Shown: piece after piece, positions 15,138 to 35,247 of the stretch
How positions within the stretch are numbered: position 1 is the stretch's first letter
Layout: each line of letters begins with the position of its first letter
Origin: Hericium rajendrae
Taxonomy: Eukaryota; Basidiomycota; Agaricomycetes; Russulales; Hericiaceae
Assembly (NCBI GenBank): GCA_033439255.1
Contig: CM065880.1
Span: 1,054,001-1,118,000, forward strand
Reading direction: 5' to 3'
DNA: 64,000 bases
Program-made: the position numbers and the translations under genes
The notes under the pieces: model-generated
Database searches by the model: none
What the model was told of the DNA's origin: nothing
What the model saw: the letters and a program-made list of their open reading frames with translations, nothing else

Positions 15138-16541
15138 TCAGTTCAGGATCTCGAGATCGCCGTAGGGCTTCGCGCGGAGATAGCTCTCGTCGAAATGGTG
15201 CACGCGCACGAAGCCGTCTTCGCCTCCCGATGCGTATGCGATGCCTTGTGGGTGCACGGCGATGCTGCAGTGCCACGCGTAAGTTTGAGTTAGGGACATG
15301 TGGGGAAAGAACATGGGACGTACGTGTTGATGGGGCCGAAGTGGCCCTTGACGCGGCCGACTTCCTCCTCGAAGACTTTGTGCCAGAAGCGCGTCTCGAA
15401 TTTGCCCTGGCGAAGTGATGTGGTGGTGACGCTCATGGCCTCCTGGCCACCGCCGAGTAAGACCTACGATACAAGGGCTCGTCAGGGTGTACATGACTTG
15501 AGTTGAGATGAGATCACGCACGTAGGGTGCGTTTGGCGCCAGCGCCGCGCTGTTCAGTGGTGTTTCTGTGCTGAACGTCTTCAGCACCCGCAATGTCTTC
15601 GAATCGTGTATCTGCGCGAGATGAACGTGAGCATCACCCATATCGTGGTGAAGAATGAGACATACCCGCGCTGTCTTGTCTTTGCTGCTCGTGACGAAAT
15701 ACGATCCGTCGGCGCTCAGCTGCAGGTCCGTGACGACGTCCATGTGCGCACGCTCGTTGCTGAGAACTTCGTCGCCCGTCTTCGCATCGTACAGCGCGAC
15801 CTTGCCGGACTCGTGTCCGGTGATGATCAAATTCGACTGGTACGAGAACGCGCAGACGGTCGCCTTCGAGCCAATCGGGTGGAAGAGCGACACGGGCTCC
15901 GGGTCCTCTGCACACACACCGCCAGTCAGCATACGGACGGAGAATGGGGCGCGGAAGACGCACGGTCGGTGCCGTCGCCCTCTCGGTTGATGTTGAACAC
16001 GCGGATCGCGCCTGGTGGACCCATGCGCTGCTCCGTGATGCACACGACCTGCTTATCGTCGTCGCTGAATGCGACCCGCTTCACCGCCGTCGGGAACTCC
16101 CATACGTACAGGCACTTGCCCGTTGGTACGTCCCAGAGGCGCATTTCATTATCGGCCGATCCGGAGACGAGGAAGCGTGATTGTGCTACAAGGGGAGCGA
16201 CGCTGTGAGTTGCATGCGGGATCAGAGGGAGGGGCACATACAGTCGACATCGATCGTCCAGACGGCGCCGTTGTGTCCCTCGTACGTCCCTAGCCGTTCG
16301 CCATTATGTGAGAACCAGACGTTGATGACGTGATCTTTTGAGCAGGAGAAGAGGAGGTCGCCCTCCTTGTTAAACTTGATTTGGGTCAAGGACCGCTCGT
16401 GGCCTGCGTAAAGTACAGGGATCAATATCTCGGGATGGAGAAAAAGCATATGATCTAACCTTGAAGTAAGATGGGTCTCTAAACCGGCACGTGTTCTGTA
16501 AGTTAATGATAAAACCTCCACTTCATCGAGCGACGTACCAT
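15138..16541 (-). CDS. TIF34: Translation initiation factor eIF3 subunit i (WD40 protein)
   Basis: This is the eIF3i subunit, a WD40 propeller that joins eIF3b/eIF3g in the 43S pre-initiation complex in the cytosol. The start reads [20 protein letters not shown] after the initiator Met, closely matching fungal and animal eIF3i. Further WD repeats include [37 protein letters not shown] and [20 protein letters not shown], and the gene ends [11 protein letters not shown]. The length, about 340 residues, is normal. The initiator ATG (16539-16541) is immediately followed by an intron (16479-16538, GTACGT to TTTAG), then a 19-nt exon (16460-16478). Later introns are 50-90 nt. The frame is clean throughout. 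It is head to head with the RIF1-like gene A, 300 bp away. Confidence 0.95.
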
Positions 16542-16841
16542 ATTTGCAGGTAAGGAGAATGTAGTAGTAGCAACAATTGAAGCCTTCGCAAATCTTCGCT
16601 GACAAGCTCTCAGTGCCTCTGGACTTTTCGCGTCACGTACCTGTGACAGAGCTCGGTCACTGCGCGCTCGTGACTCAGACGCGTCTGGTCGCGTCTTTCC
16701 CACGGCATGTAGTCGACGCTCGCTTGCTCTCCTATTGTTTTCCGACACATATTTATTCCCGCCGACTCCTCTATGCTGCAACTCAACCAAAGTCGACGCG
16801 CGCCGTTTTTATCTCAAGTCCCACGAACTCATAGCACATTA
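16542..16841. promoter_or_regulatory. Shared divergent promoter of eIF3i and RIF1-like A
   Basis: Exactly 300 bp separate the two start codons, which point away from each other. Nothing coding is visible, so both promoters must lie or overlap here. No TATA box is evident; the right half is rich in C and T on the + strand, as is usual before basidiomycete start codons. Confidence 0.5.
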
Positions 16842-19800
16842 ATGGCCTCCCCAGCCCCTTCCCATAGCCATGTCGACACGCGACGTGCGATCCTCCCCGT
16901 CCCTGATCTGCCAGAGGATCACCAACACCTTCTCGAGCCCTTTGAAACGCTTCTCTACTCGCTCGACGATCTCACGCACGAGAAGCTTTCGCTCCATGAC
17001 CTCACCGAGGCATACTCCATACTTTACCTGCGGCTGAGGACCTGCGCCCATATCCTGTCCGGCGCGTTCTCGGTCTGGTGCCGCGGGGAGCGGCGCTCGC
17101 GGGTAGTTGAGGTACTCAGGAGGGACGTATCGAGAGCCCTGACTCCTCCGCTCGCGTTTCTTGTCCAGCAGAATAATTCATTTGAGCCTTCAAGCGCGGA
17201 CCGACGCGAAGTGACCGAAGAGGATATCCAGTTTGTGAGGGATTCTACTGACGTATGCCATCATTCTTTGCGGGTCGTGTCCCAGATTTTCAGAGATGCA
17301 ACTCTTCTCACGATTTTGGAGGTTCGTCGAGTCATCGAGATAGCATTTTTTTTCTTGCTGAGGCTCCATTTGACAGACAGCGTCGGTCTTCTGGTGGACA
17401 CTATCCTCGATATCCTGACGATGGCTTCGTTGCCGTCTTTTGATGCATGTAAGACGTATGCGCTATGTATATGGGCTCTTCGGATGCACAGTCTCCCTGC
17501 ACGCGTTATTTCTTCAAGGAAGGAGCAACTCGTCATTGCTCTTCAGTGCGCTGTGAAGGGTGATATCTTCAACGATAGGAACGAAGAGCTCATAATTGAT
17601 GCTCTGCAGGTACGTCGCCTCATCAGTGAATTCAAGGTGTATTCACCGGTACTACAGGTAGTGAATTCTTCATTGAGCACCCATGGCGATGTCCTTGTGA
17701 TATCCCTCCATGGTGTCGTGTCTGTTGTCTTGCCGCATCTTGTTTCGCAATCTCCTGTCCTCCGGCATGAGGCTGCGAGTACACTATCAATATATTGCTC
17801 GACTCTACTCCGGCATCTAAGGCAATTTCCTGAAATCCGGACCCTGTTGTCTGCGGAAGTCTTAGCCTTCCTCGAAATACAGACGTGCAAGTCCAACGTC
17901 CCGCCTTCAGCAGAAGCGTCTCCCCGAAATGCTCAAGAAGGCCATGCGGGAAGGCAACACATGCAGAGTCGGAGGCGGCTGTACATGGGCCCTGACAGTT
18001 GTGGCCTGCCTGACGCTCCTGCTCCGCGACGCTTTCTTCTCTCACTCGCGCACGCTCCGGATGTGTATGGAGACCGCGGCTGAGCTCCTTAACCGTATAC
18101 ACCATCCGCTTCGGGGTCTGCATCCTCACGTCTGGCGCTTCTTCCTATGGGCTTTTGCATGCCTCAGAGCCCGGCTGAACGATGCGGTGCAGGACAGTGC
18201 GTTGTTGGACAGGGTGGAGCGTGCGCTGCGCACCATCAAACAGGAGCTGCACGATGGCTTGGGCGTAGCTCTTGTCCGTACGCTCGTTGGGCCCAACAGC
18301 AATGTGTGCTCTTCTGACGTCTGGGGCGTTCCGCAAACCATTTCGATTGTGAAAGGATATGCTTCAAAGCGAGGACAGCGCCGTCCGAGATGACGGGCTG
18401 GCGACGCTTCGCAAGCTACTCGATGGATGCCATACAAATCGCTCGGAAGGAGATCCGAGTTCAAGCTGGAATCATAATGCTTTGCTTTGCGGGGCTTTGT
18501 TGGAGGGAACGATTCTTCGGACACGCAAGGCCGAGCTCTCAGCGATCGTGAAGTCCCTCGGACGGGATGTTGTTGAGGTCAGGCAGCTGTCTTTCGGTGA
18601 AATTTCTCGTTATTGGGACGATCTTGCGTCGTGCTGGATCACGGTTGTGCAGAGCCATCACAACGCGTCCCCGGACGGCCTACTTGATGTACGTGATTAC
18701 TCTCAGCCCTTGTTGAAGCGCCGATCTGAACTTCAGGATGACAGGACGACACGTTATCGGTGTGGCGGGCTCTTCTGAACCAAGAAACCCGCATGACGGC
18801 TACGGACCTCACGGCGAAGGCGACGTCCGTGGTCATCCAGGTTCTTTCTCAAGATCTCCAAGAACCTGGTGTCTCCGTTAATGCGATGGAAAAGCATTCA
18901 TTAGACCTCATCAAGAAGCACTGGGACATTATGGCAGATGTTTTGAGCAGAACTGCGTTACAAGCTGCCGCCGCATTGATCCTCTTGACTGTTCTGAAGC
19001 ATAGCTTCAATCTCATAGCCGGACCTGTCAAGGCTGCCTGGTCTGATCTATGCGCCGGACTGGTTGCCACAGGTCATCCGGATATCTTGAAGACCCTAGC
19101 GGCGAATAATTCTCAGGGCAGGGAAGCGGAGCTCTCGAAGCAGATGTGGCTGTTAATGGCGAGCGCTTGGCATGAAACGAACAAGAAAGCAAGCCGCGAA
19201 GATTCATTATCGTTCCTCATGATGCCTTTCGAGTGAGTGGAACAAGTTCTGGCTATATCCACAGTCTCATTGTTTCATAGTGATAGCTCGTGGTCTCTCT
19301 CCGTTGATGAGATTGATGCATGGGATGCGGTGTTGGGACGTAGCATCGCTGGAGAAACGCCTGCCCAGACTATTGCCCTTCTTGAGGGCGTCAGTCGGAT
19401 ACTCCTCGCCAGGAGTTCAAAGTAGGTCATCAGGAAAATCTAACTTTTGGCGGTCTAACATTTGTGTGCAGGATTCCATTGAGCGTCGCTTTGACACTGG
19501 CAATTGCGCTGATTCGTCGTATGGATCTGGAACGAGTCACCGTGCTCCCGGTGATAACACTGTCTTTCATCAATAATGTCCTAGTCAGCTCATACTCGGA
19601 ATCTGAGTCAATCAGTCGCCAGGTTACCTTGGACTTGTTCAGTATTGCTCATAACCAAATCATCGTCGCACCGGATCCGCTTCTTATATCTTTATTGAAC
19701 AGTCTTGAGATGTCTCTAATTCTTTGGTTCAAGGATGAACATCGCATCACTTCAGAAGACGAATATAATTCCATGGTGCGTCCCATTTATTACGTTTTTT

Positions 19801-21646
19801 GTCACAATGCACTGATTGGCTTTCTAGATAATACCCCTCTACCGGACAATCTTAGTCCGTCTTGAAGATACCAAGCCCTCTTTGCAAATCATATTTTCTC
19901 TGGCGCCTCTTCTAGCCTCCGCATTCACGCGCATACCCCCTCCAGCTCATGGTCCACTTGCTTACAAGAAGTTCTTCGACAGCGTATACCTGACTCGCGG
20001 TCTCCCTGCGAAAGACTACCCAGAACAGCTCATTGTCTGCGCTATGACCTGTCTTCATTGTTTCGGCGGCGAAATGCTACCTGGACTCGAACTTGAATCA
20101 CAATCTCAAGATTCACCTCACGATGTGGAGAGTCGAGTCGTACCCGATTCCCAATCGGGTGTTGACAACGGCCCGCAGACAGAAAATTCTTCCAAAGTCC
20201 CCACTTTCGGCATTGCTGGGGATGTACAGCTCCCAGACAACTGATTGTCCCGACTTCGTGCAAGGCAGCTCGTCTGCTCGATTTCATCGTCCGATCTCTA
20301 CTTCAAAGCCTGCATCTATCTCGGCATCTAACATGTCACAGTCGTCAGCATTGCTTATTGGCCATGCGCAGACGCCATCGTTGCTCTCTGCCGTCGATCG
20401 ATCAAAGACAGTGCGAGATATCGGGCGTTCAGATGCTTCAGCGTGTCGAGCTGGTAATCCTGGAGCAGCAAGCAACGATGCTCCCGCTCCACCTTTGCGT
20501 GGATTGATATCCGGCCTTCGGAGGAAACGCTCCTCGACGGCCAGCACGGTTCCGCTCAAGAAACGGAAGCTGACACCGTCCGAAGAGTCCGCCGATCGAT
20601 TCACGTTCGCAGTCGGTCTGCGCCCATGACGCGCGTGTCTTCACCCATTGTGAACGCTGCTCGATCGCGATGCGTCCAACCTGGGCGCAAGGTCTTCGAC
20701 TGTGTGGAATTGCTGCCATACCACATGATACGCAAGCGGCATATGAAGGGCAAGAGCGTCGATGCAGGTGCTGCTAGAAGTCGGCGGTCGAGTGTTAGGG
20801 CATCTACAGATGCGCTTTTGAGTTCCATCCAACGTGGGCAGGACGATAATCGTCCCCAGCGATCAGCACACAAGGGCAAAGGCAAGCAAAGGCCGCACGA
20901 GAGAAATCTTCTCCTCGGGAGCAGTACGATGACTGGGAGATGACTGTGGACACGCCTCAGGTCATGAAATTCAGGAAAGAGCTCATGCGGGAGCAAGAAA
21001 TTGGTAGGCTTTTGTGTTCTGGAAACTGTGTTCATGCATGAAGCTGACTTGTTTCTACTCAGTACCCGAAACTCCTCAAGCTGATTTCACTACATCTGTT
21101 CGTCAAACTCTTCCGACGCCGACATCGTCCCCGATTCAATCATCCCCACACAGACATCACCCTGTTCATCATAGCCATTCATACCCTCCGATAGCTCCCG
21201 GCACCAATCTCCTTCCTTCATCGGAGAAGCCGGACTCTCCGATGGCGGATGCTCCGCCGCTGCGACGGGTGCAGAGCAGTTCAGCACAAATCATGCTCCT
21301 TCGACAGGCGCGCGATGCTATGACAGGTGATGGTTTATCACAGCTACAGGTGCCTGACTTGGTCACGGCGACGAAGATTGTTGAGGAGATGAGTGCAGCG
21401 CTCAATCAGAGGATGCGGAAGCAGCTCGTTGAGGGCGTTGGGGCACGGAGCGCGCGTCTGTATCTGGCGGTGCTAAATGAAATTTCACACGACGTTGCCT
21501 GGCGTCTTGCCTTCGTGATTGCTGCTGTATCCATTCATCTTGATACTGATACCGATTCATGAATTCAGATTAAAGCTGTGATGCACCTCCACGAGGCCAG
21601 CCTCGCGTTTGGGGTGAACGAGAAGAACCTTCCTTTCCGGCGATAG
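16842..21646 (+). CDS. RIF1-like protein, copy A (divergent paralogue)
   Basis: RIF1 is a long HEAT-repeat nuclear protein that sets replication timing and acts at telomeres and DNA breaks. The N-terminus here has LHDLTEAYSILYLRLRTCAH, matching SLIEAYSVLAARLR of the second RIF1-type gene in this window (28260-33319). Colinear similarity continues: SVGLLVDTILDILTMASLP with LGLLLTEVLAIPLARSLP; FINNVLVSSYSESESISRQ with FVNDTLVSTYPPEPRNLN; VFDCVELLP with VFLDAIEVP. The end is KNLPFRR. Frame changes are mostly explained by introns of 40-56 nt, for example 18307-18358, 18688-18743 and about 20836-20876; a few have weak donors (GTCTTA, GTCCCC). The region 20590-20700 is least certain. I see no SILK or RVxF motif near the N-terminus. 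It could be a gene under relaxed constraint. Confidence 0.6.
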
Positions 21647-22010
21647 ACCAAATTGGGCATCTTGGTTAACATAACTGGCAGCGCGTCTTCTGTGTCAAAA
21701 ACTGGCTTTATCTGCATCGACTTGCCAGTGATTTGACCCTGCTAGGTTCTATCAACAATCAGATGTTGATTTTCATCCAGTACGACATCTCTCACGGAAA
21801 GTGAGTGGATATCACAGACATCCCGCTGTGAGGCAGCCTCGCTTTGAAGGAGGTGCGTCGAATTAATGCAGTTTCCTTGACGGCATTACGTGCTATGATG
21901 GCACGCGGTCTCCTCGGCGCGATTCCGTAGCAGCCGTGAGTAGAGATCGTCAGTTGTTTGGAAACACGATCAATGCGAATCTTGAAGGGTCGTCAAAAGA
22001 AGCTCGAGGC
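21647..22010. other. Intergenic, no gene seen
   Basis: This short gap lies between RIF1-like A and the CFA synthase, which are in the same orientation. I see no RNA gene or repeat. Part of the CFA synthase leader may begin here, because its first exon is not fixed. Confidence 0.4.
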
Positions 22011-24250
22011 ATGTTGAACTTCCTCTCCCTCTCCATTTTCCTATCCCCTTCGTACGGCCCGTGGCGTCCCTTCTCTATCCTTTTGACCACAATGAGTAGG
22101 CAACTTCTGGATACACCCTCGCAACATGGGACGTCTTAGCAAGTCTCGCGGACGACGGACTTGAGTATGTTCGAGATTTGGCAATACGTGGGTTGGGACC
22201 GATGGCAAGGTTTGCCGAATCGGCAGTCATATCGTACGCCTGTTTTTCCTGCGAAGCTATTTTATTTTGACAACTAAGCTTTTTCAGAGTGTTCAGCAAG
22301 ATTCAACATGGTCATCTCACCGTCGTGACATCTGGTCAAACGTACCATTTCCCCTCGCAAAACACCCCTCTGGCCAACGATTATCCAGACGTCCACGCTG
22401 AATTACGCATCGTCAGCGACACGTTCTGGGTCCGACTATGTACTATGAATGATCTGGGTTTTTCCGAGGCATTCATGTACGGTGACGTTGAATGTGACGA
22501 CCTTATTCCGGTTTTCTTGGTACGTTCGTTGAATTCGACTTGAATGCGCAATGAAAGAACTAATCACGCGACGATAGATCTTTATTTACAATAAGGAGAA
22601 CATGCAAGATCTAGATTCGAGACTGAGCTGGCTCTTTACTCTACCCCAAGACTGACATCCTACCGCTTTCTGAACTCCTTGAGCAATTCTCGCTCGAATA
22701 TCTCCGCCCATTATGATCTGTCTAATGCGATGTTTTCTGGTACGTTCCAGACATCAAATGTTTGGTCCGTGAATTCGTCTGATTGCAGATGCATAGCTTT
22801 CCTTTCCAGTGACATGACATATTCCTGCGGCATCTACCCCGACTTAGATGGAGATATCACTGCATCTTACTCTCCATTTCCGGACCAAGGAAAGCTTCCC
22901 TTTAGCCCGACAGTGGAATCAGCACTTTCAATCGAGGCGGTTCTCTCTCCAGCTACGTCGAATGCGACGACTGCAGTAGGCTCGCGCGAGGCGAGTCCTG
23001 TACGCGGTGACGACCAGCTTCACGCAGCTCAGTTGCGAAAACTCCACACATCATCACCAAAGCGCGTATCATGCCTGGGCAGCGTGTTCTCGAGATAGGA
23101 AGTGGTTGGGGCTCGTTGACCATGTACATCGTGGAGAAGTTGCCGAAGACGCAAGTGGACACAATCACCCTGTCTGCACACCAGCATGCGTGGGTGACTC
23201 GACTTATCGAAGAGAAAGAACTGGAGGATCGCGTACGCGTTCATCTGATGGACTATCGTGAGATTCCTGAGGAATGGGAGGGTATGTTCGACCGTGTGGT
23301 CAGCGTCGAGATGGTCGAAGCAGTGGGACAAGAAAACCTCGAAGATTATTGGCGAGCGATTGACAAAGTCCTGAAAAGGAGGGCGGAGCAGGCGTGATTC
23401 AAGGGATCACCATCCCAGAGGCCCGTAAGTCTCGTCGTGGCCTTGCTATTGTTCTCGTCAGATCTCAACGCACACATTCACTTGTAGGTTTCGCTGCTTA
23501 TGCAAAACAAGTGGATTTCATCCGGAAATGGGTATGTCCCTATCTTACCATTGACTGAGCGTGCCTGTTCTAATTGAGTTTCTCTGGTCATACAGAGTAT
23601 GTCCGTCTTCACTAAGCTTGACGCTTTATTAACGCCTCGCGTCCAGTTTTCCCGGGCGGCCTGCTCCCTACCGTGACAGGGCTCATCACAACGATGACCA
23701 GCGCTACGTCGGGGCGCCTTCTCGTTGACTCGGTCTGCAATATCGGCCCGCACTACGCCCGCACCCTGCGTGACTGGCGTTCTCGCTTCCTCGCAAATTT
23801 CAGCGAAGTCGAGGACGCGCTCCGAAAGGACCACCCTGGCGTTTTTGACGGTGAAAAGGGTGCGTATGAGCTAGCTGTGTTCAAGAGAAAATGGATCTGT
23901 AAGTTCCTGGTACCTCAGCCCTGGTCTGCCGTCTGACATGTGCGACAGATTATTTGTGAGTTTCAGGATGTTTGCGCCCGTCTGGCTATCCCCTGACGAG
24001 ATGTAAAGCTGTTACTCCGAAGTGGGCTTCACGACGCATCTCTTGAATGGTGAGCTCTCCCGTAGTTGACGTGGAGCGGACTTATCTAGGACCTCTGTCC
24101 ATAGACCACATCATCGCATTCACGCGAGAGGGAAATGAGGGAATGGATGCGACGTGTTTGAGTGACCCTGGGCATTGGTGCCAGTGCCCAGTCATGGCCT
24201 GTCTGTTCGTCTTGTACAACTCACCGACAGGTGGCGAAAGTTTCTTGTGA
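22011..24250 (+). CDS. Cyclopropane-fatty-acyl-phospholipid synthase-like methyltransferase
   Basis: The family transfers a methylene from S-adenosylmethionine to unsaturated acyl chains of membrane lipids. The leader contains GPMARFAESAVIS, then DTFWVRLCTMNDLGFSEAFM, and the family segment NISAHYDLSNAMF ... LSSDMTYSCGIYPD. The SAM-binding motif is VLEIGSGWGSLTMYIVEKL at about 23083, followed by DRVVSVEMVEAVG and, after introns, VFPGGLLPTVTGL, GPHYARTLRDWRSRF, VFKRKWIYYF and the YSEVGF ending. A last exon reads DHIIAFTREGNEG, consistent with the usual TREGN-like C-terminus, and may run to 24250. The first exon is uncertain; 22011 is only the most upstream plausible ATG. The family is bacterial in origin and common in fungi. 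Confidence 0.8.
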
Positions 24251-24558
24251 GATAGATATCGATGAATACGTCATTTCCAACCTGTAAACAAGCATGTGTG
24301 AACATGGACAGCTTGTCCAGAATGGATATGCACAAATTCAAAACAAAACGATAAGTACAACAATCAAACAGAATTAGCGTACAGTATGCTACAGGATACA
24401 TATGAAGTACAATGGAGTTGAGGTATAATCCTCCTTTGGGAGAAGAAGATGCACTGTCCAAGGTCATGAAGATGATGAAGCAATCCGTTCTGTCAGTTAC
24501 GCGCTCATCAGTCCGAAAGTCAGATGGAACGAAAAATAGAATAATCGCACCTTAGCAG
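24251..24558. other. Convergent 3' flanks, no gene
   Basis: AT-rich sequence lies between the 3' ends of the CFA synthase (+) and the F-box gene (-). No coding or RNA feature is seen. Confidence 0.5.
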
Positions 24559-25949
24559 TCATGGCCCAATGTATCTGAATGTCAATTCCTGCCCTAGATG
24601 ATCCTCCATCCGGAATCCAGGGCAAGGATATATGTTCTTCAGCTCAATGGATGCCCAAGCCTGGATGTCTTGCATCATATGCGGGTTGAGCAAGCGAACT
24701 GATCCCACCGATTTAGGTGCGATCGAGGGCAATTTTTTGCATAACGCCGCAAATGCCTCCGTGCTGTCCAACGGACGTTCGAAAGCGATGCCGAGCTGTG
24801 TGACGGACGGGAGATGTTTGAGACGCGGAATATCCTCCTCGTCGAACAGATGTATGTCAAGACGTTGAAGATTGGGGCAATGATCCTTGAATGAGCTCAG
24901 GAACGTCGAGAAACTTACAAGGATTGACATCCGTGCATTTCCATATCGCAGGTCCAGGTAGGCTGAGGTGAGCTGCTGACCATATAGCGAGAGGAGTGAC
25001 GAAGAGATATGATGTCGCAGTTCGGACGGAATGGTCGGAAGAGGGCATGGCGGATAGAGGGGAAAGGGTTAATGTCTTGGTGAACGTCATCGTCGTGGCA
25101 GTGGCCATTGCCAGCGATCACCGTCGCAAACGAAAGATTCGATAGTAAGGGCCACGTAGCTGGGCACCCTAGGGAGACCTCGCCTCCCATGATAGTACGG
25201 AGGTTCGGCATGGAAGAAAGAAGTGCATGACAGTCCGATGGTGCGAACAGCACCTCGCTGTGCTCATCGAGATGCAGCTTGCGCAAAGAATGGCCACATT
25301 TATCGATAACAGTCCGAGTGAACTGCTCCCCGAAATACGGGGTTGTTCGAACGTAGCTCGAGACAGGAATGGAGAGGGACAGAATCTCCAGGTTGGTGCA
25401 GAAGGTGACGATTCTGTGGAGATGCAAGAACTCCAGCGGAGTGATGCTGGGCCCGAACATCATATAGTCGTTGGTTATTCGCAGAGATACCACCAAATGG
25501 CGAATCCGCGATCCCAGAGGGCGAGGAGCGTCGACCGACGAGACGCTGCGCGACTCCGACGCCTGGAGGGCCCGCGCGAGGGATTGTGCTGCTTTGCCGC
25601 TGTTCACCAGAACACATTGGTAGAGCACTGGCATGGCGATCAGATAAAACTGCCTGCATACGAGCGTCAGACCTCGGGTCGTGCGAAGAGAGGCTTTGAG
25701 GGCCTGTGTGTCGAAGCGGTCGGGAGGAGTAGTAAATGGTCCGTCTAGTGAGTCGATGACTTCGACATCCATAAGCCCCGGGACGAATGCCGACCATTCA
25801 AATATCCTGGTCCATAGTTCGGTCGGCAGTCGGAAGGCATCTGGGTTTCGAGGTAGTGTCTGTTCGAATCGCTCAAGAATGAGAATGTGGGGGAATTGAG
25901 TTGAGAACACGTCACTCACTGATCGTGAAGGCATGGTCATTGCCTTCAA
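24559..25949 (-). CDS. F-box protein with LRR-like tail
   Basis: F-box proteins bring substrates to SCF ubiquitin ligases. The N-terminal part carries the F-box core FRLPTELWTRIFEWSAFVPG, then LTLVCRQFYLIAMPVLYQCV, a very common agaricomycete arrangement. Leucine-rich segments follow (FCTNLEILSLSIPVSS, CGHSLRKLHLDEH, SSMPNLRTIMGG). The first frame ends at 24915. The repeat pattern, however, moves to another frame at GG 25037-25038 and continues SLYGQQLTSAYLDL and CPNLQRLDIHLFDEEDIPRL to the stop at 24559-24561. No intron explains the switch, and one extra C on the coding strand would restore it. That fits the base-loss pattern seen in other genes here; a real disabling change in this fast-evolving family is the alternative. 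Confidence 0.7.
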
Positions 25950-26372
25950 GGGTGAATTACCAATCTCCCGTTAGACACGGAAGATTGTACAGAGTGAAAT
26001 GGATGCAGATGGAGTGTCTGGGTCATAGCGTTGTGATGCTATAAATCGCTGAATTATTGTCGGATGGGAGAACAGGCGGACAGTGGGATGGTACTGACGT
26101 CGGACGACGTCGTATATAGTGAAGCTGGACAAGTTGAAACACCTGACAGTGGAAGTGGGCTGATATTGGAGAAGCGCTGTTTCATTTATATATGCACATC
26201 GCCTTGTCGAGATGTCTCGTTCGACGCTGTAGACGCGCCGGTGGGACACGCCGGCGGCTTCGTTCGTCAGAAACTATCACGCAGAACGCCAAAATGGCCT
26301 CATGTTCTCCAAAAGACAGAAAGGCCCTGAGGAGCACCTTCATAAGGTTGACGACACCGAGTTGTGATTCTA
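25950..26372. other. Intergenic, no gene seen
   Basis: This lies between the F-box start codon and the TIR element. It probably contains the F-box promoter. No domain-bearing frame is present. The TA at 26371-26372 is one half of the element's target duplication. Confidence 0.4.
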
Positions 26373-26458
26373 CTGCTGATTCAGAAAACCTTGCGTGGCG
26401 CGCCTGAACGCGCCACGAAATCCCGAAAACTCGAAAAACTCGAAAAACTCGAGAAACT
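26373..26458 (+). repeat. Left terminal inverted repeat of the TIR element
   Basis: About 86 bp from CTGCTGATTCAG to GAGAAACT. It pairs with 27511-27595 on the opposite strand. Three tandem CTCGAAAAA-type units lie at its inner edge. Confidence 0.8.
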
Positions 26459-27510
26459 CTAGCATATCTTCTACACCTCGTATAATCATCATTTGCGTGT
26501 CCTGAGCTCTTGTTATATTGTAACCCAAGCTATTTGCCACCTTTTTTCTGCAAAATGCCCAACTCCGAGGTCATCAGCGTTAGTGATGAAGAAGGCCTTG
26601 TCTGCGATGGCTCGCGATGGGCCTTGTGTGGATGACGGTTCAGAAGGGTTCTCAGATGAAGCCAGTGAGGAGATTGACAGGCTCGACCCTGAACGTGAGT
26701 CCGCAAACATTCTGAACTGAATTTCGACTGAATGCTCGTAGTAGCGTATGTCGAAGCCAGTGCACCACAGCGGCCCCTCGTGCATTGCGTTCTCTGCATG
26801 CTCGTATGCCGTACCGGACTACGGCAGACGTGTCAAGAGCCGTTCGCATGAGCAAGACGAAGATAACAATCGTACAGACCAGCGCGATGAGTATGCTTCC
26901 ACACTGGCGACATTCACCCATGCGCGTCCTCCGCGTCCTCCTGCAACACATACGCATGCAGACATGCGTGCGCACCCCCCTGCAACATGCCAGCGCATCC
27001 AGCCGTCGCATGCCAGCTTGCCCATCACATGCCACCCCGCCTGTCGCATATCCACCCACCCGTATGCTCGTTCGCTCACTTCCGCTCCTGCACGTCCCGT
27101 TCCTGCCTATCTGTTTGTCAAACGCTTGCCCGCACATCCATTCTGTCCCCGCACATCCTGCCGGAGCATCCCTGCCCACCTGTTTGTACGCCGCCACTGC
27201 ACACCGTACGTGCATGATGAAGCCACCGAGCTATAGGGGGTAAAAATGTACATATCTTATCATGTAACTACTGTATGTTATTCTGGACAATAAGAATGGA
27301 AATCTATAAGCTTTCGATGAGTTCCAAGCCCCGATATTCTCCCAACGAGACCTCATAGGTCTTGCAAGATGGTCTTCCCGATTTGGAACAGCATCCTTGC
27401 CCCACTCATCTTTGAGCAACTCAATTACATGCTATTCGATGCTGGGGTCGATTTCCCGAAAGACCATGAGATGACTGAGGAGAAATAGACAGAGAGCAAC
27501 AGTCTACGCA

Positions 27511-27595
27511 ATTTCTCGAGTTTTTCGAGTTTTCGGGAGTTTCGGGATTTCGCCGCGCGTTCAGACGCGCCACGCAAGGTTTCCTAAAAGAGCAG
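27511..27595 (-). repeat. Right terminal inverted repeat of the TIR element
   Basis: About 85 bp, the reverse complement of 26373-26458 with several substitutions and a small length difference in the CTCGAAAAA units. The sequence just outside repeats TAAAAGAGCAG once more (27596-27606), so the exact outer end could be shifted by one such 11-bp unit. Confidence 0.8.
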
Positions 27596-27597
27596 TA

Positions 27598-28259
27598 AAA
27601 GAGCAGTAACGATAACTCCCATATGCCCCACATATAAGAACACATCGTACCGCATGGATCTGCTTACTCCATGCTCATTTCTCTCATGACATTTTTCTGC
27701 GTCAGATCTCGCTCCACCGAAAGCATTCATTTGAGATGAGTCCGGACGGCGAGACGAAGCATGAGCTCGGACGGAGTAAGCATGCATGGAATACTAGTAG
27801 AACAGGCCCTGATAGGGCCCGTGGTCTGAACGGGCAGATGGAATGTACCTGTCGGCTGTCACGGCACTCCCGAGCCAATCATATACAGAACGGCGGTCTT
27901 CAGTGCGGGGTCAACAACGGAGATGACAAGCCGCATGCCAGCAAAAGGAAGATGTCCATCGAAGAACATACTAACGTAATTATTTTGCGGAACAGAATGA
28001 TTGTGTGGCGACTCACCATACAGTGGACAGCATCCCCTCTCACATTGTTTCTATGATAGAATGCAGAAGCATAAACACCGACGGAGATACAAGGACGGCT
28101 CTGACCAAGCCCAGATTGATTGTGTACGGAAAAGATACGATCTACAAATGCAACATGCAAGACTTGCTTTGAACAATGACTATGACAGAAACGCGAGGGT
28201 TGTGATGGAATCTATAGGTTGCTTGGAATATGAGGAACATATCGAGAAAACCGAAAGCA
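27598..28259. other. Intergenic between TIR element and RIF1-like B, no supported gene
   Basis: An open frame at 27736-28056 (+) has no recognisable domain, and a short one at about 28053 stops early. Neither shows family similarity or plausible splicing. I read this as the 3' flank of RIF1-like B plus the element's insertion site. Confidence 0.4.
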
Positions 28260-31200
28260 CTATGCGGACGGTGAAGCTACTGCGAGGCGAATCGGCAGTC
28301 GCAATGGAGACGAGGCGAACGATGCCGAGCTTGATCGTGACATCCGCCTTGCGACGCGCTGTATGGAAGGACTGACCGAGACATTTGAATCGTCACTGGG
28401 TGGGTCGCTGTTGAGATCCATTGTGCGATGCATGGTGGGAGAGATAAGATGATGGGGCGTGACTTGGCCCTGGTGCGGATCATCGTCAGATGATGGCAGG
28501 GCGGGCTTTCGCGCTGTTGGAGTATGGACAAGGCTTATAGAATCATCTGAAAGAACATGCACGTCAGGATTCGCTGTTACAGTCAGAGCCTGTCGAACTT
28601 ACCGCTTCCGATGACCTGAGAATCTACCAATCCTCGAAGCGGAGAGCTACTCCGCACCTGGGACCGAGACTGCGACCTCTTCCGCGTCGGTGGGAGCAAC
28701 CCTGACTGCAAGGGAAAGTTCATAGACTGGGTCTTCCTGATACTTCGCGTAAGGGGTCGCCGAGAGCTTGAGCTGGCCTTACTGGCACTATTCTGGCGTC
28801 TTTCCTGCCGCCGTACGTCTTTCAGCAGAGGGACTTCGATTGCGTCCAGAAAAACGCCGAGCTTCCGTTTTCTGGCGGACAGCCGTGGAGACGGGCACGG
28901 ACTGACACTACGACGAAGGGGCCCTGTCGTCGCCTTCGCCGTCATGTCAGGAGGAGGCGAGGGTTGAGCAGAAGCAGGGAAGGCGAAGAGGGTTTGTTCG
29001 ACTTGCATGCAGTCGACTTCGCTTTCCACATCACCTTCATCCATGTTCTTTTGGCTAGCTGGTGGGGCATGACTGGCTATATTCTGTGACGACGACGAAG
29101 TTACTGGTTGCATTGGTGAGGGCGCAAGGCGTTCTCGTTTAGTCGGACGTTCATTCGACGCAGGTTCAACCTGGGAACGCTTTCCGAGCACGGAAACGAT
29201 CGGCGAAGACTGCATTGCAATGCGATCCATGACTGAGACTAGCGGCCTACGGGGCGAAGCGTTCTCCTTGTCGGGAGAGATGTCCATCTTGTCCGGAGAC
29301 CGAGGGGACCGCGTGGGGCGCTTCGGAGTTGCAGGAGACCTGATGCGACGAGAAATGGCGGGCGCTAACGGCGATTGCGGCGAGAAAAGCACCGGTCCGA
29401 ACTTTGCTGAATCACCAGACTTGGAAGGTCGGTGAGGAGGAGACGACGATGACGGGGAAGACATCTTCTTCGGAGTAGAAAGCATTTGTACGTCGACAAG
29501 TGACGCCTCTGCGGGAAGGGGTGAAGGTGGAAGCTCTGCTTCTTCGACGGCTTTGGCCGGAGCGGGCAGTGACGAATCAAAGTCAAACGCTGGTCGAAGT
29601 ATGCCGTCAAGAGTGTCCTCTTGGTCTGCGGCGAATGGATTGGACTGTACGTCAGGTAGGGTGGTAGCCTCGGTCTTCGATTCAAATGCGACTGGGACCA
29701 CTTGCTCCGCAGGTAGGCACACCAACAAGTCTTCTGGCCAGCCTTCTGCGGGCGGAGAGACTTGTGCGACAGCAGTATGCCAGAAGTCGTTGAAGGCATT
29801 TACGATGGATGGAGGCTTGTCGCTCCGACCAGTAAAACCGGCCCTGAAAACGGGTACTAGGGCAACGATAGTGTCGACCGAGATGATAGAACGCGAGCAA
29901 ACAGCCACGTTTTCATACAATGGAACGACCTGACAGAACATGTGAGATGTCAGAATTGTGTCACAGCGGCGAAATAGACACTGACGTCTACGTCGTAGTC
30001 ATCTTGGTTGAAAACTCGGTATTCGTCGGAGATCCACGTTGCCAGACCGTCCTGAAGAATCTCCAGAATGCAACGCAACATCTCAGTGGGACATTTGTCC
30101 ACGAGCTGGGTGAGGTTCCGGAGCAACCAGCGCGAGGCGTTAAGGTTACGGGGTTCGGGCGGGTACGTGCTCACGAGCGTGTCATTGACGAACTCCAACA
30201 GTGTTCCAGGAATGTCGGTTGCCTCGGAAATTTCGATAGAAGAAACGAGGAGGTCGGCGACACGGGTAGAGGAGGTCGACGTCGGAATATGGGTGCTCGA
30301 AATGATGCCGGCGACATGGTCGATGACACGCAGTGTCTCGACACCTTCGTCCAAAGATTGATTAATAGCGAACTGCAAGGTCGCTTCCCATGTCTCCAAG
30401 TCTTCGGTACTCATTTCCCATCCATCCCTGTCACTGCGGTCATAAATGAAAGTCCATCAGAAACAAATGCGGACACCCCCATGAAAAACTCACGCAAACG
30501 GCACGCCGAGGAGGGAAAGAGCACCTTCCCACTTCGAGGGTGCGGCCTCCTTCCACCGCGCCACGAAGGTCCGCCACACGTAGCTTCGCACTTCCACGGA
30601 CCAGTCCCACTTCCATTTCATGGCCGAAGAGGGGTGTTTGGCGCCCCAGAAGATCTTGGTCGTGGTCTCGCGACATCGCACAAGGATCTCGGTGCATAAG
30701 AGTACCCATTGGTTCCGAGCGTCATGTGTCGAGTCCGTTTCCCAGACCAAGTCGTGCTCGTTCTCCATTAGGTAGGTCAGAACGATTTCCGCTGCCGCGG
30801 CCAAGTCGTCCTCAGGAATGATTTTGCGCGCGACATCCCATAGCTCACGAGTCACGTTAAGCTTCATGGCTGCGTTTGAGCGACCATGTCTTTTCACAGG
30901 ACTTGAGATACCCAATGAAACATCACCGCCACGTCTTCGACTGGGTGGTACGAAGACCACTTTGCTGTCCCCAAGAATGCCACCTAGGATGGTCGCGACT
31001 TGCTCTGCAAAAGTGATCAAGGCGTCCTCATTCTCGGCATCTAGTTTACAGTTATGAATAATTTCATGTCTGGAGCGGCGAAAGACCCACCTTGCAAAAT
31101 TTCAACATTGACGGTTAACAAACCTTTCCAACTGGCGATGAATTCCTCCTGAAAATGGGTCAGTGACGCCCTCTTCTCGAAATCGAGGAAGTTCTTACTG

Positions 31201-33319
31201 GCAATGCAGCATCTGAGTCCAAAGAGAGATGATGCAGACCCTCTTTCCAGACTTCTAGCAGACCTTCTATAACGCCATCGCCCGCAAGCTCGGCCTTTGT
31301 CAACGGCCGTACGTCGGCCACAGACGGCGTCGCATCGATGATCGGCCGAACCACGACGGGTAGCGCCATGAAATCCGCCGTCAGCAGTCCAGGGTACGAG
31401 CAGAAGAGACCCTCGGGCAAGAGCTTGGTCCAATCCCACTCGGGCGCCTCGTCAAGACTTACGAACCGCGCAAGGATAGACATAGCTTCCTCGGACACAT
31501 AGGCGCCCTTCTGGGCCATGGTCCTTACGACACCCATGACCTTCTTTATGTCCTCCTCGTCGTCCACACGGTTTGCGAGCACCGCTCCGACGGTCCCAAC
31601 CCCGGCGCCCATGTCCACGGCGGATTTGACCACTGTCCAATATTCCTCGCGCAGCTTCTCCTCCTCGGGCGTCAGCACCGTATCCTCCTCCATTCCCATG
31701 TCCGGCTCTCCGTCGTCCTCGGATTGGAAAGATCGGAGCGGTGGACGGAAGTATGTCCAGCTAATGCAACGCCAGAGTAGACATGCAAGACCGCGGACTG
31801 AGCTCTTCTTGTGTCGCATGGCGAGAGAAAGCAGATGTGACAAAATGCACGAGAGCTTTCTGCTGACGGTTAGAGCCGACCCGAGGAGGACAATGAAGTC
31901 GGCCATGACGCTCAGTGCCCAGACGGGCCCATGCGCAACGGCTGGTGGGTCGTGTGCATTGAGAGTTGTCCGCAGAGTGCGCACAATGACAGGGTCCACA
32001 GAGACCAATGCCTGACCCGGGCTCGCCTTCTTTCGTAGTGACTGCTGCTCTGGCACTTCAGTCAGGAATGCGGCGACGCATTCGGCTATATGGGAGTGGA
32101 CTAAAGTTTGTGGTATGCGCGTTGAGGCCAATGCAAATCCGCTGAGGGCATGACAAGCTTGTGTACGAAGGCTGAGGGTGACAGCAAGAAGATTATCGAG
32201 CACGGACGGAAGCAGCCCAGCGAACGCCGGGACGAACACCGCCGGCTCGTACAAGGACAGTTCGTGGATTGCCTATGATGCATATCAACACCAGGTACAT
32301 GAGGAGGTCGAAAGACTCACTCTGAGGCCATCACTGGCCGACCCTTTCTTACCCTCTTTTCCTAGCTCACCGTCGATTGCACGACGCAGCGCAAATGCGA
32401 TCCTGTCCTTTGCGGGGAGCAGCACGGAAACGGGCAGTCGTTGAGTTTGGATCAACCATATAGCCAGCGCGCATGTTTTGCGTGCGTTGGGAGTCGGCAA
32501 TGATCGTGCTAGAGGGATGGCGAGAACTTCCGTCAGCAGCAAGCCCAAATCGCGATCTGAAGGTGGAACATGATATCGAGATCAGCTCATGCGCGATTGC
32601 TTCGATAAATGCATACCATTGAACACGTGGTGAACTGCAGGGGTAGTGAAGACGAAAGCCAGCAGCTTGATCACCGAGTGGGTGGTCGTGCACAGATCAC
32701 GCGCATATTTGACCTGCTCTGCGGACATGCCGCGTTTCTTCCTAGGGCTCTTCTGCGGCGACGGCAGAGCTGTCCTCGCCTCAGGTTCGACCGGGCTCTC
32801 GGGTCCTGTATCCTCTGCCGCTGCGCCCGCCAGTGGATCCACCAATGCTCTCCCAAGATCACGACACATAGCATCCACAAGGACTTGACGATGTTTCCGA
32901 AGGGGTTGGAATAAGGGCCACGAGCAATCGGCGTCAGTGTTTTCCTGCACAGACGAACGAAGTCTGGCAGCGAGCACAGAGTACGCCTCGATGAGACTGC
33001 GTAATGACGCGTCTGGCGCCATGATTTGAGAGACCGGCCACTCCAGATAGCGCAGATCCGCCAAAGGATCGCTGGGCTCCGGCGTGGTCTCTCGCTCCGG
33101 CTCTACAGGGATGGCGGTGATGGGACCCGACGAGCGCTTAAGAATCGACCGTGCTGGGAGCTCTGTGGATGCGCTAGCCCGCAACCGTTTGCGTGGAGGG
33201 CTTGCTAGATTATGGTACTTGTTCAGTTGCGCCCAGGCCACACGAGAATTCGATGCTGAACGAGGTACACGGTTTTCCTTGTCGCGATGAGATGTCCCCG
33301 GCGGCGTTGGGAGACTCAT
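28260..33319 (-). CDS. RIF1: RIF1-like protein, copy B (telomere/replication-timing factor)
   Basis: RIF1 recruits protein phosphatase 1 to oppose DDK at replication origins and also acts at telomeres and double-strand breaks. The N-terminus (MSLPTPPGTSHRDKENR) carries two PP1-docking motifs: RVAW at residues 26-29 (RVxF type) and SILK at 58-61. The Rif1 N-terminal region follows (LRYLEWPVSQIM, SLIEAYSVLAARLR, VDAMCRDLGRALVDPL) and then long alpha-helical HEAT-type sequence with RVADLLVSSIEIS and LLEFVNDTLVSTY. The C-terminal third is disordered and Ser/Pro/Arg-rich with SP sites and basic clusters (ARKRKLG). The last intron (56 nt, about 28549-28604) joins VIGSG to DDSISLVHTPT, and the protein ends LAVASPSA. 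The frame is clean throughout. The length, about 1,400 residues or more, fits fungal RIF1. Its N-terminal disordered tail is missing from copy A at 16842-21646. Confidence 0.8.
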
Positions 33320-34191: not shown

Positions 34192-35247
34192 ATGTCTTCC
34201 CTGACGTTCTTGTTCCTCTGCCTCGTCGCATTTGTACATGCTGCCCCCCTTGTGAAGCGTATCGTGATTGATCCTCAAATCACGAGTCCGACGGCTTCGA
34301 CGGTGTGGACTGTTGGAAGCAATGCCACCGTGACGTGGTGCGTCTTGTCCCTCTTGACCTTGTTTCATGGTCTGATAGGTGTGTTCGAAATTGTAGGGAC
34401 ACGACTCAGATCCCTTCGTCAGGCAACTTCTCTGGTCTGCTTATCCTGGGTTTCAACGAGAATGAGAGCGAGAATCTGCAGCTGGGTAAGAATCAATCTA
34501 CTTGTCCTTGAGGCTTCCTGCATTCTACCGCATTGTTGTACCCGTGTCCTTCATGGAGCGGAGGGTACGAACATGCGGTCGATCGATCCTCTTGGTCACT
34601 TCGCGTGCGCGCTCCCGTATCAGCAGACTCACTTATCGTTATCTTCAGACAACCCACTAGCTCAGGGCTTCGATCTTCGTGCCGGCAAGGTTGATATCAC
34701 GGTCCCGGATGTAACCTCCAAGTCTAACTACATCGTCGTTCGTGAGTATCTTAAGTCCATCGACTGTTCGAATATATGTCTAACGAACACATCAGTCATG
34801 GGCGATTCTGGTAACGCAAGCCCAGAATTCACGATCTCAGGCGGTTCTGCGTCCTCCGGCACGAGTACACCATCGTCGACTGTTGAATCGTCCGCCTCAT
34901 CCACGGCTGCCCCATCTTCGGCGGAGACCGCCTCAGCATCTAGTTCACCATCCGAGTCCCCTGCTGCACCTCCAACGACCGAAGTGCTACCACCGAGCTC
35001 GACGACCGAAGCGCCAGCACCGACCTCGACGACCGAAGCACCAGCACCGACCTCGACGAATGAGGCGCCAGCATCACCGCAGACTGCGGCCCCATCGGAA
35101 CCCACGGTCTCGCCATCGTCTTCACCTTCCAGTAGCCCTCTCGCCTTGGGCGGCGCGCAAACCGGTGGCGCGTTCTCGAACCATGCTAACGCTCTGACCA
35201 TGATCGCTCTCAGCGGGCTCTCCGCAGCCCTTCTGTTCGCTCTGTGA
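34192..35247 (+). CDS. KNH/Kre9-like Ser/Thr-rich GPI-anchored cell wall protein
   Basis: The signal peptide is MSSLTFLFLCLVAFVHA. The mature part begins after a Lys-Arg pair and has the Kre9/Knh1-like beta-sandwich signature (DPQITSPTASTVWTVGSNAT, VTWDTTQIPSSG, GKVDITVPDVTSKSNYIVV). A Ser/Thr/Pro stalk follows, with nine-residue TTEAPAPTS repeats at about 34970-35080, then a hydrophobic tail (ALTMIALSGLSAALLFAL) typical of GPI attachment. Exons are 34192-34337, 34397-34485, 34649-34741 and 34796-35247; all junctions are GT-AG and keep phase. Such proteins sit at the plasma membrane or wall and have been linked to beta-1,6-glucan assembly in yeast; many basidiomycete members are of unknown role. 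Confidence 0.88.
   Translation: MSSLTFLFLCLVAFVHAAPLVKRIVIDPQITSPTASTVWTVGSNATVTWCVLSLLTLFHGLIGVFEIVGTRLRSLRQATSLVCLSWVSTRMRARICSWVRINLLVLEASCILPHCCTRVLHGAEGTNMRSIDPLGHFACALPYQQTHLSLSSDNPLAQGFDLRAGKVDITVPDVTSKSNYIVVREYLKSIDCSNICLTNTSVMGDSGNASPEFTISGGSASSGTSTPSSTVESSASSTAAPSSAETASASSSPSESPAAPPTTEVLPPSSTTEAPAPTSTTEAPAPTSTNEAPASPQTAAPSEPTVSPSSSPSSSPLALGGAQTGGAFSNHANALTMIALSGLSAALLFAL
34970..35080 (+). repeat. 27-bp tandem repeats encoding TTEAPAPTS-type units
   Basis: Four consecutive nine-codon units read TTEVLPPSS, TTEAPAPTS, TTEAPAPTS and TNEAPASPQ. The middle two are nearly identical at DNA level. They lengthen the O-glycosylated stalk of the KNH-like wall protein. Confidence 0.85.

Follow-up and report, generated by a model that had tools for sequence, protein, structure and literature searches.

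The window analysed here is a 64,000-nucleotide stretch of the Hericium rajendrae genome (positions 1054001-1118000 of contig C3, in a genome of 46.8 Mb and 19 contigs). It carries two large genes, referred to below as copy A and copy B, that lie on the same chromosome in opposite orientation and within 17 kb. Copy B was modelled on the minus strand at 28260-33319, as eight exons (33319-32617, 32556-32321, 32272-31199, 31148-31091, 31040-30494, 30433-29986, 29929-28603 and 28546-28260) encoding 1559 amino acids without an internal stop, in a model that was partly set by hand. Its layout consists of an N-terminal docking-like pair of motifs, then a long and probably helical region, and then a low-complexity tail. 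Copy A lies on the plus strand. Its repeat region (16842-20139) was obtained by splice-aware alignment to B and encodes 962 amino acids without stops, in exons at 16842-17325, 17377-17609 and 17658-17858, followed after a doubtful junction by 17914-18303, 18356-18688, 18745-19232, 19281-19421, 19472-19775 and 19828-20139. The alignment to B stops near 20.1 kb, and a low-complexity tail of uncertain exon structure (20198-21560, plus strand), delineated from reading frames and intron enumeration, runs on to about 21.5 kb. Within this tail there is a possible C-terminal helix (LRQARDAMTGDGLSQLQVPDLVTATKIVEEMSAALNQRMRKQL), for which alignment gave no convincing counterpart in the 3′ region of B. 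The first gene predictor over-split both genes, and was kept for the starts and a few junctions, including the tail intron at 20140-20197. The start points proposed in an earlier, sequence-only reading of the window (MASPAP... at 16842 on the plus strand and MSLPTPPGTSH... at 33319 on the minus strand) are both exact.

Copy A is divergent from a gene for eIF3i (15138-16541, minus strand; Pfam EIF3I, 487.8 bits), and their modelled starts are separated by roughly 300 bases, a spacing that depends on an eIF3i model whose first exon is just 3 bases long; a promoter shared by the two genes is possible. The interval between A and B had been said to hold a CFA synthase, an F-box gene and an element with terminal inverted repeats (TIR). 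The first of these is present (PF02353, 163.5 bits), as is the last, whereas the F-box match, in a partial protein, is below threshold (14.7 bits against a cutoff of 24.3). The TIR element is 1.23 kb long (26368-27600) and ends in 89-base terminal inverted repeats that are 85% complementary. Two more near full-length copies were found on contigs C12 and C1 at 99-100% identity, with relatives at 69-71% on C2 and C8, and the element is probably a non-autonomous DNA transposon that was mobile recently. Beside copy B, on the plus strand at 34975-35055, three 27-base direct repeats lie in a Ser/Thr/Pro-rich reading frame.

Homology of the two copies

When the 962-residue model of copy A is compared to B, BLASTP gives an E-value of 7e-49, with 235 of 1049 positions identical (22%) and 436 of 1049 positive, which rules out chance similarity. 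Two of the matching segment pairs from which the paralogy was originally argued (LTEAYSILYLRLR with LIEAYSVLAARLR, and FINNVLVSS with FVNDTLVST) fall inside this one colinear alignment. A third, VFDCVELLP with VFLDAIEVP, can be seen by eye in the two tails, but the alignment did not recover it.

The positions of introns provide a second line of comparison. We aligned the B protein to the genomic DNA of copy A, permitting introns and frameshifts, with an aligner that was blind to the introns of B. Five of the eight introns placed in the repeat region of A correspond in phase to introns of B. Three of these are at the identical residue (B residues 313, 671 and 1022) and all are in phase 0: A introns 17610-17657, 18689-18744 and 19776-19827 on the plus strand match B introns 32320-32273, 31198-31149 and 29985-29930 on the minus strand, respectively. 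The other two are off by one residue. A intron 17326-17376 corresponds to B intron 32616-32557 in phase 1 (residues 235/236), and A intron 19233-19280 to B intron 30493-30434 in phase 2 (residues 873/874). The former has a weak donor (GTCGAG), and adjoins the first intron of B in the alignment. Over the repeat region as a whole, three introns of A are absent from B and one intron of B is absent from A. The reverse alignment, of the A protein on B DNA, again gave three exact matches and two off by one. Some care is needed in reading these placements. The aligner was free with introns, giving 20 in A, of which the first eight were used and the 12 in the tail dropped, and 12 in the reverse run on B, where five are introns of the B model and one shares only the acceptor. 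Since introns are placed so freely, single weak ones are not trustworthy. The hypergeometric value for the common introns (1.7e-8 with 300 slots) is a rough guide, as it presumes exact matches or slots set by the authors.

As copy A retains introns common to B, it is a DNA-level duplicate, and an origin as a retrocopy is ruled out. Searches of the genome with E-values up to 1 returned only the two loci: the B protein gave seven matches (five in B and two in A) and the A protein nine (six in A and three in B). There was thus no third locus at this threshold in the 46.8 Mb, at which a much more diverged copy could escape. Judged from these comparisons the two genes are clearly homologous along their repeat regions, and the local duplication with strong divergence that was first proposed for them is supported by the BLASTP score, the five in-phase introns and the lack of a third matching locus. 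Copying of a larger block is another possible origin of the pair. Repeats linking A and B reach 26 bases at most, and this is uninformative on the point, because DNA repeats would not have survived such divergence.

The reading frame of copy A

By intron enumeration, copy A contains at least two junctions that have no good splice solution, a point absent from the sequence-only reading. At the first (17859-17925, plus strand) the frame changes, and the choice is between introns with weak donors (e.g. GTCTTA) and a frameshift. The weak intron placed at 17859-17913 may be an aligner artefact; with a lower frameshift penalty the aligner takes a frameshift at this junction, and also near 18.37 and 20.13 kb. 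The second doubtful junction, at about 20578-20691 on the plus strand, presents the same choice between weak donors and a frameshift, but has one open alternative intron (20411-20472). There are no stops in the 1088 codons of copy A, in a frame that was partly chosen for openness, and this bounds any neutral period of the gene at K of about 0.03 substitutions per site. The frame used also has the best codon score in all ten exons, on a codon-use scale trained on 14 other reading frames within the window. These observations suggest that coding constraint on A held until recently, and that the frame changes left unbridged represent either beginning decay or unusual splicing.

Two other accounts of the breaks need to be weighed. 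Copy A could be a young pseudogene with real frame breaks, leaving B alone to work. The frame changes that lack a good intron, at least two in number, fit this directly, and because the models of copy B and of the neighbouring eIF3i gene are both open, with mostly consensus donors, poor local assembly is not an obvious cause. However, such a pseudogene would have to have kept 1088 codons free of stops and the best-scoring frame in every exon, and the two doubtful junctions have some splice option, the open alternative intron at the second site and a weak-donor intron at the first. We regard this account as possible, without favouring it. The breaks could also be sequencing errors or unusual introns, in which case A would be a second RIF1 in full working order, serving a task of its own. 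Coding-type sequence flanks each break and stops are absent, as this account would have it, but the models of B and of eIF3i nearby have no such breaks, and we consider it somewhat unlikely. For copy A we prefer an account in which coding constraint lasted until recently, with the gene perhaps now starting to decay or being oddly spliced.

PP1-docking motifs and the probable assignment to RIF1

Both genes had been described as RIF1-type in the sequence-only reading. A motif scan of copy B identified a PP1-docking-like pair (33137-33244, minus strand), with RVAW at residues 26-29 and SILK at residues 58-61. Yeast Rif1 (PF12231; PDB IDs: 5nw5, 5nvr) has the same arrangement, an N-terminal RVxF motif and then SILK (SVAF and SILR in yeast), with 27 residues between them compared to 28 in B, and in both proteins the docking pair is followed by a long region, probably helical in B, and a low-complexity tail. 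Among 20000 shuffled versions of the B sequence, 0.235% contained a pair spaced by 15-60 residues; when the first motif was loosened and the spacing set to 24-32, 29 of 30000 did. Both of these spacing windows were set after seeing B. The motifs are described as N-terminal in fungal Rif1 (PMC3410773), and as present in all Rif1 homologues analysed except putative plant ones (PMC3410773; also PMC4811881). RVxF comes first in B and in the yeast sequence used here, whereas the wording that PMC3410773 uses for fungi is SILK-RVxF. In Hansenula polymorpha Rif1 the docking pair is reported to immediately precede the HEAT region (PMC8820739).

Copy A, which begins MASPAPSHSHVDTRRAILPV, differs in this respect. 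The motif scan found neither RVxF nor SILK in its 962-residue model, and no SILK in any of the three plus frames across 16200-21700. The same frames contain four RVxF-like hits, one with an internal stop, and by the exon positions all four are off the coding frame.

Comparison with other species drew on the literature, Pfam profiles and a single solved yeast structure, and searches for the RIF1 family itself were negative. Neither copy reaches the cutoff of the Pfam Rif1_N profile (PF12231), whole or as N-terminal pieces, whereas the N-terminal region of yeast Rif1, used as a positive control, scores 186.7 bits; this control sequence matched PDB IDs 5nw5 and 5nvr. Yeast Rif1 could not be aligned with a profile built from A and B (hhalign probability 0.2%). 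Under the earlier reading, a score of A to generic HEAT profiles alone would have told against paralogy. A matches no Pfam family at E-values up to 10, and as B misses Rif1_N too, the HEAT-profile check does not separate the two copies; in B, HEAT_EZ scores 12.7 bits, against a cutoff of 27. Structure predictions for exon 3 of B, alone and together with one exon of A, were mostly helical and of low confidence (mean pLDDT 43.8 and 38.1). A fold search with the low-confidence exon 3 model gave no E-value below 0.001, and no Rif1 among the best 50 of 630, and is given no weight here. Sequence searches of the PDB at E-values up to 10 returned two hits for B, none for A, four for the A and B profile and none for the A tail; none was named Rif1, and the best E-value was 0.94. 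Yeast Rif1 found no match in the genome, and PF12231 none in the genome contigs, in searches run without a positive control; the empty PF12231 result carries no weight. Scanning viral contigs with an exon of B produced eight pattern matches, of which none were confirmed.

The RIF1-type label thus stands in part, through the yeast-like RVxF-SILK pair of copy B; neither copy earns it by the Rif1_N profile or by similarity to yeast Rif1. The name RIF1 for B comes from architecture, meaning the docking pair and the layout, and not from a sequence-family match. On that architecture we consider B very probably a RIF1, and most likely one that recruits PP1. That A and B are large helical nuclear proteins of some other family, one of them with a PP1-docking N-terminus, would agree with the missing Rif1_N match and the lack of alignment to yeast Rif1, but is improbable, as the pair in B matches that of yeast Rif1 in order, spacing and place, homologues of yeast Rif1 may share as little as the 16% identity reported for the Hansenula polymorpha protein (PMC8820739), and the genome searches, lacking a positive control, gave no better Rif1 candidate.

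Possible roles of the two copies

RIF1 proteins without a PP1 dock already have precedents, both in laboratory mutants (PMC7371424) and in putative homologues from plants (PMC3410773). In yeast rif1 mutants without PP1 docking (rif1-pp1bs), telomeric origins are reported to fire while telomere length is kept (PMC7371424), by which the PP1 and telomere-length roles would be separable. The same source discusses a published conflict on telomere length in such mutants, and the unpublished telomere elongation in RVxF/SILK mutants mentioned in PMC4811881 speaks against such a separation. Since docking mutants are reported to keep telomere length, a RIF1 without the dock could still do other work. 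Copy A, if expressed, would resemble these mutants in lacking the dock; unlike them, it is a diverged gene in its own right, with a copy that carries the dock close by. The putative plant homologues are, like A, natural and without a SILK/PP1 motif, but they were set aside as too diverged, and the passages of PMC3410773 that deal with them mention no dock-bearing partner gene. A dock-less RIF1 paired with a dock-bearing copy is likewise not described in the relevant passages of these two sources, and no duplicated RIF1 in fungi is announced in the titles and abstract openings of the literature matches listed. A similar case from another family is that of RAP1A and RAP1B in Hansenula polymorpha, also a duplicated telomere protein in a fungus (PMC6510891); Rap1A is subtelomeric and has no reported telomeric role, as given in PMC8820739. 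Relative to yeast Rif1 itself, the differences are the lack of detectable similarity to the protein or to the Rif1_N profile, the presence of two nearby copies, and the lack of a dock in A.

Taken with the architecture of B and the state of A, we think it probable that the locus holds a duplicated RIF1, with B as the working copy and A as a dock-less one that may be beginning to decay or be oddly spliced. One RIF1 gene would have been duplicated at the DNA level, giving inverted and strongly diverged copies within 17 kb, and B would have stayed the working RIF1. The RVAW-SILK pair of B would bind PP1, through which DDK phosphates would be removed from the replication helicase and origins delayed, while the helical array would hold B on chromatin or DNA ends. 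Copy A would have retained the helical array and lost the PP1 dock. If expressed, it could be a PP1-free RIF1 scaffold, acting at DNA ends, at telomeres or in repair, or a competitor of B; it may now be starting to decay, or may have unusual splicing.

The idea that the two copies divide tasks, one serving replication timing and the other something else, was a sensible guess for a pair in which A lacks the PP1-docking motifs. A natural split of RIF1 function, with B responsible for PP1 and replication timing and A, free of PP1, for DNA ends, telomeres or repair, is a more specific proposal that we make tentatively and hold to be somewhat unlikely. RIF1 sets origin timing through PP1, protects ends and takes part in repair, and these jobs are hard to separate in one protein. 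Docking and dock-less copies in one fungus, if true, would mean that the jobs of RIF1 have been separated by nature. If copy A is instead decaying, it would mean that a second RIF1 can persist for long under selection before it is lost.
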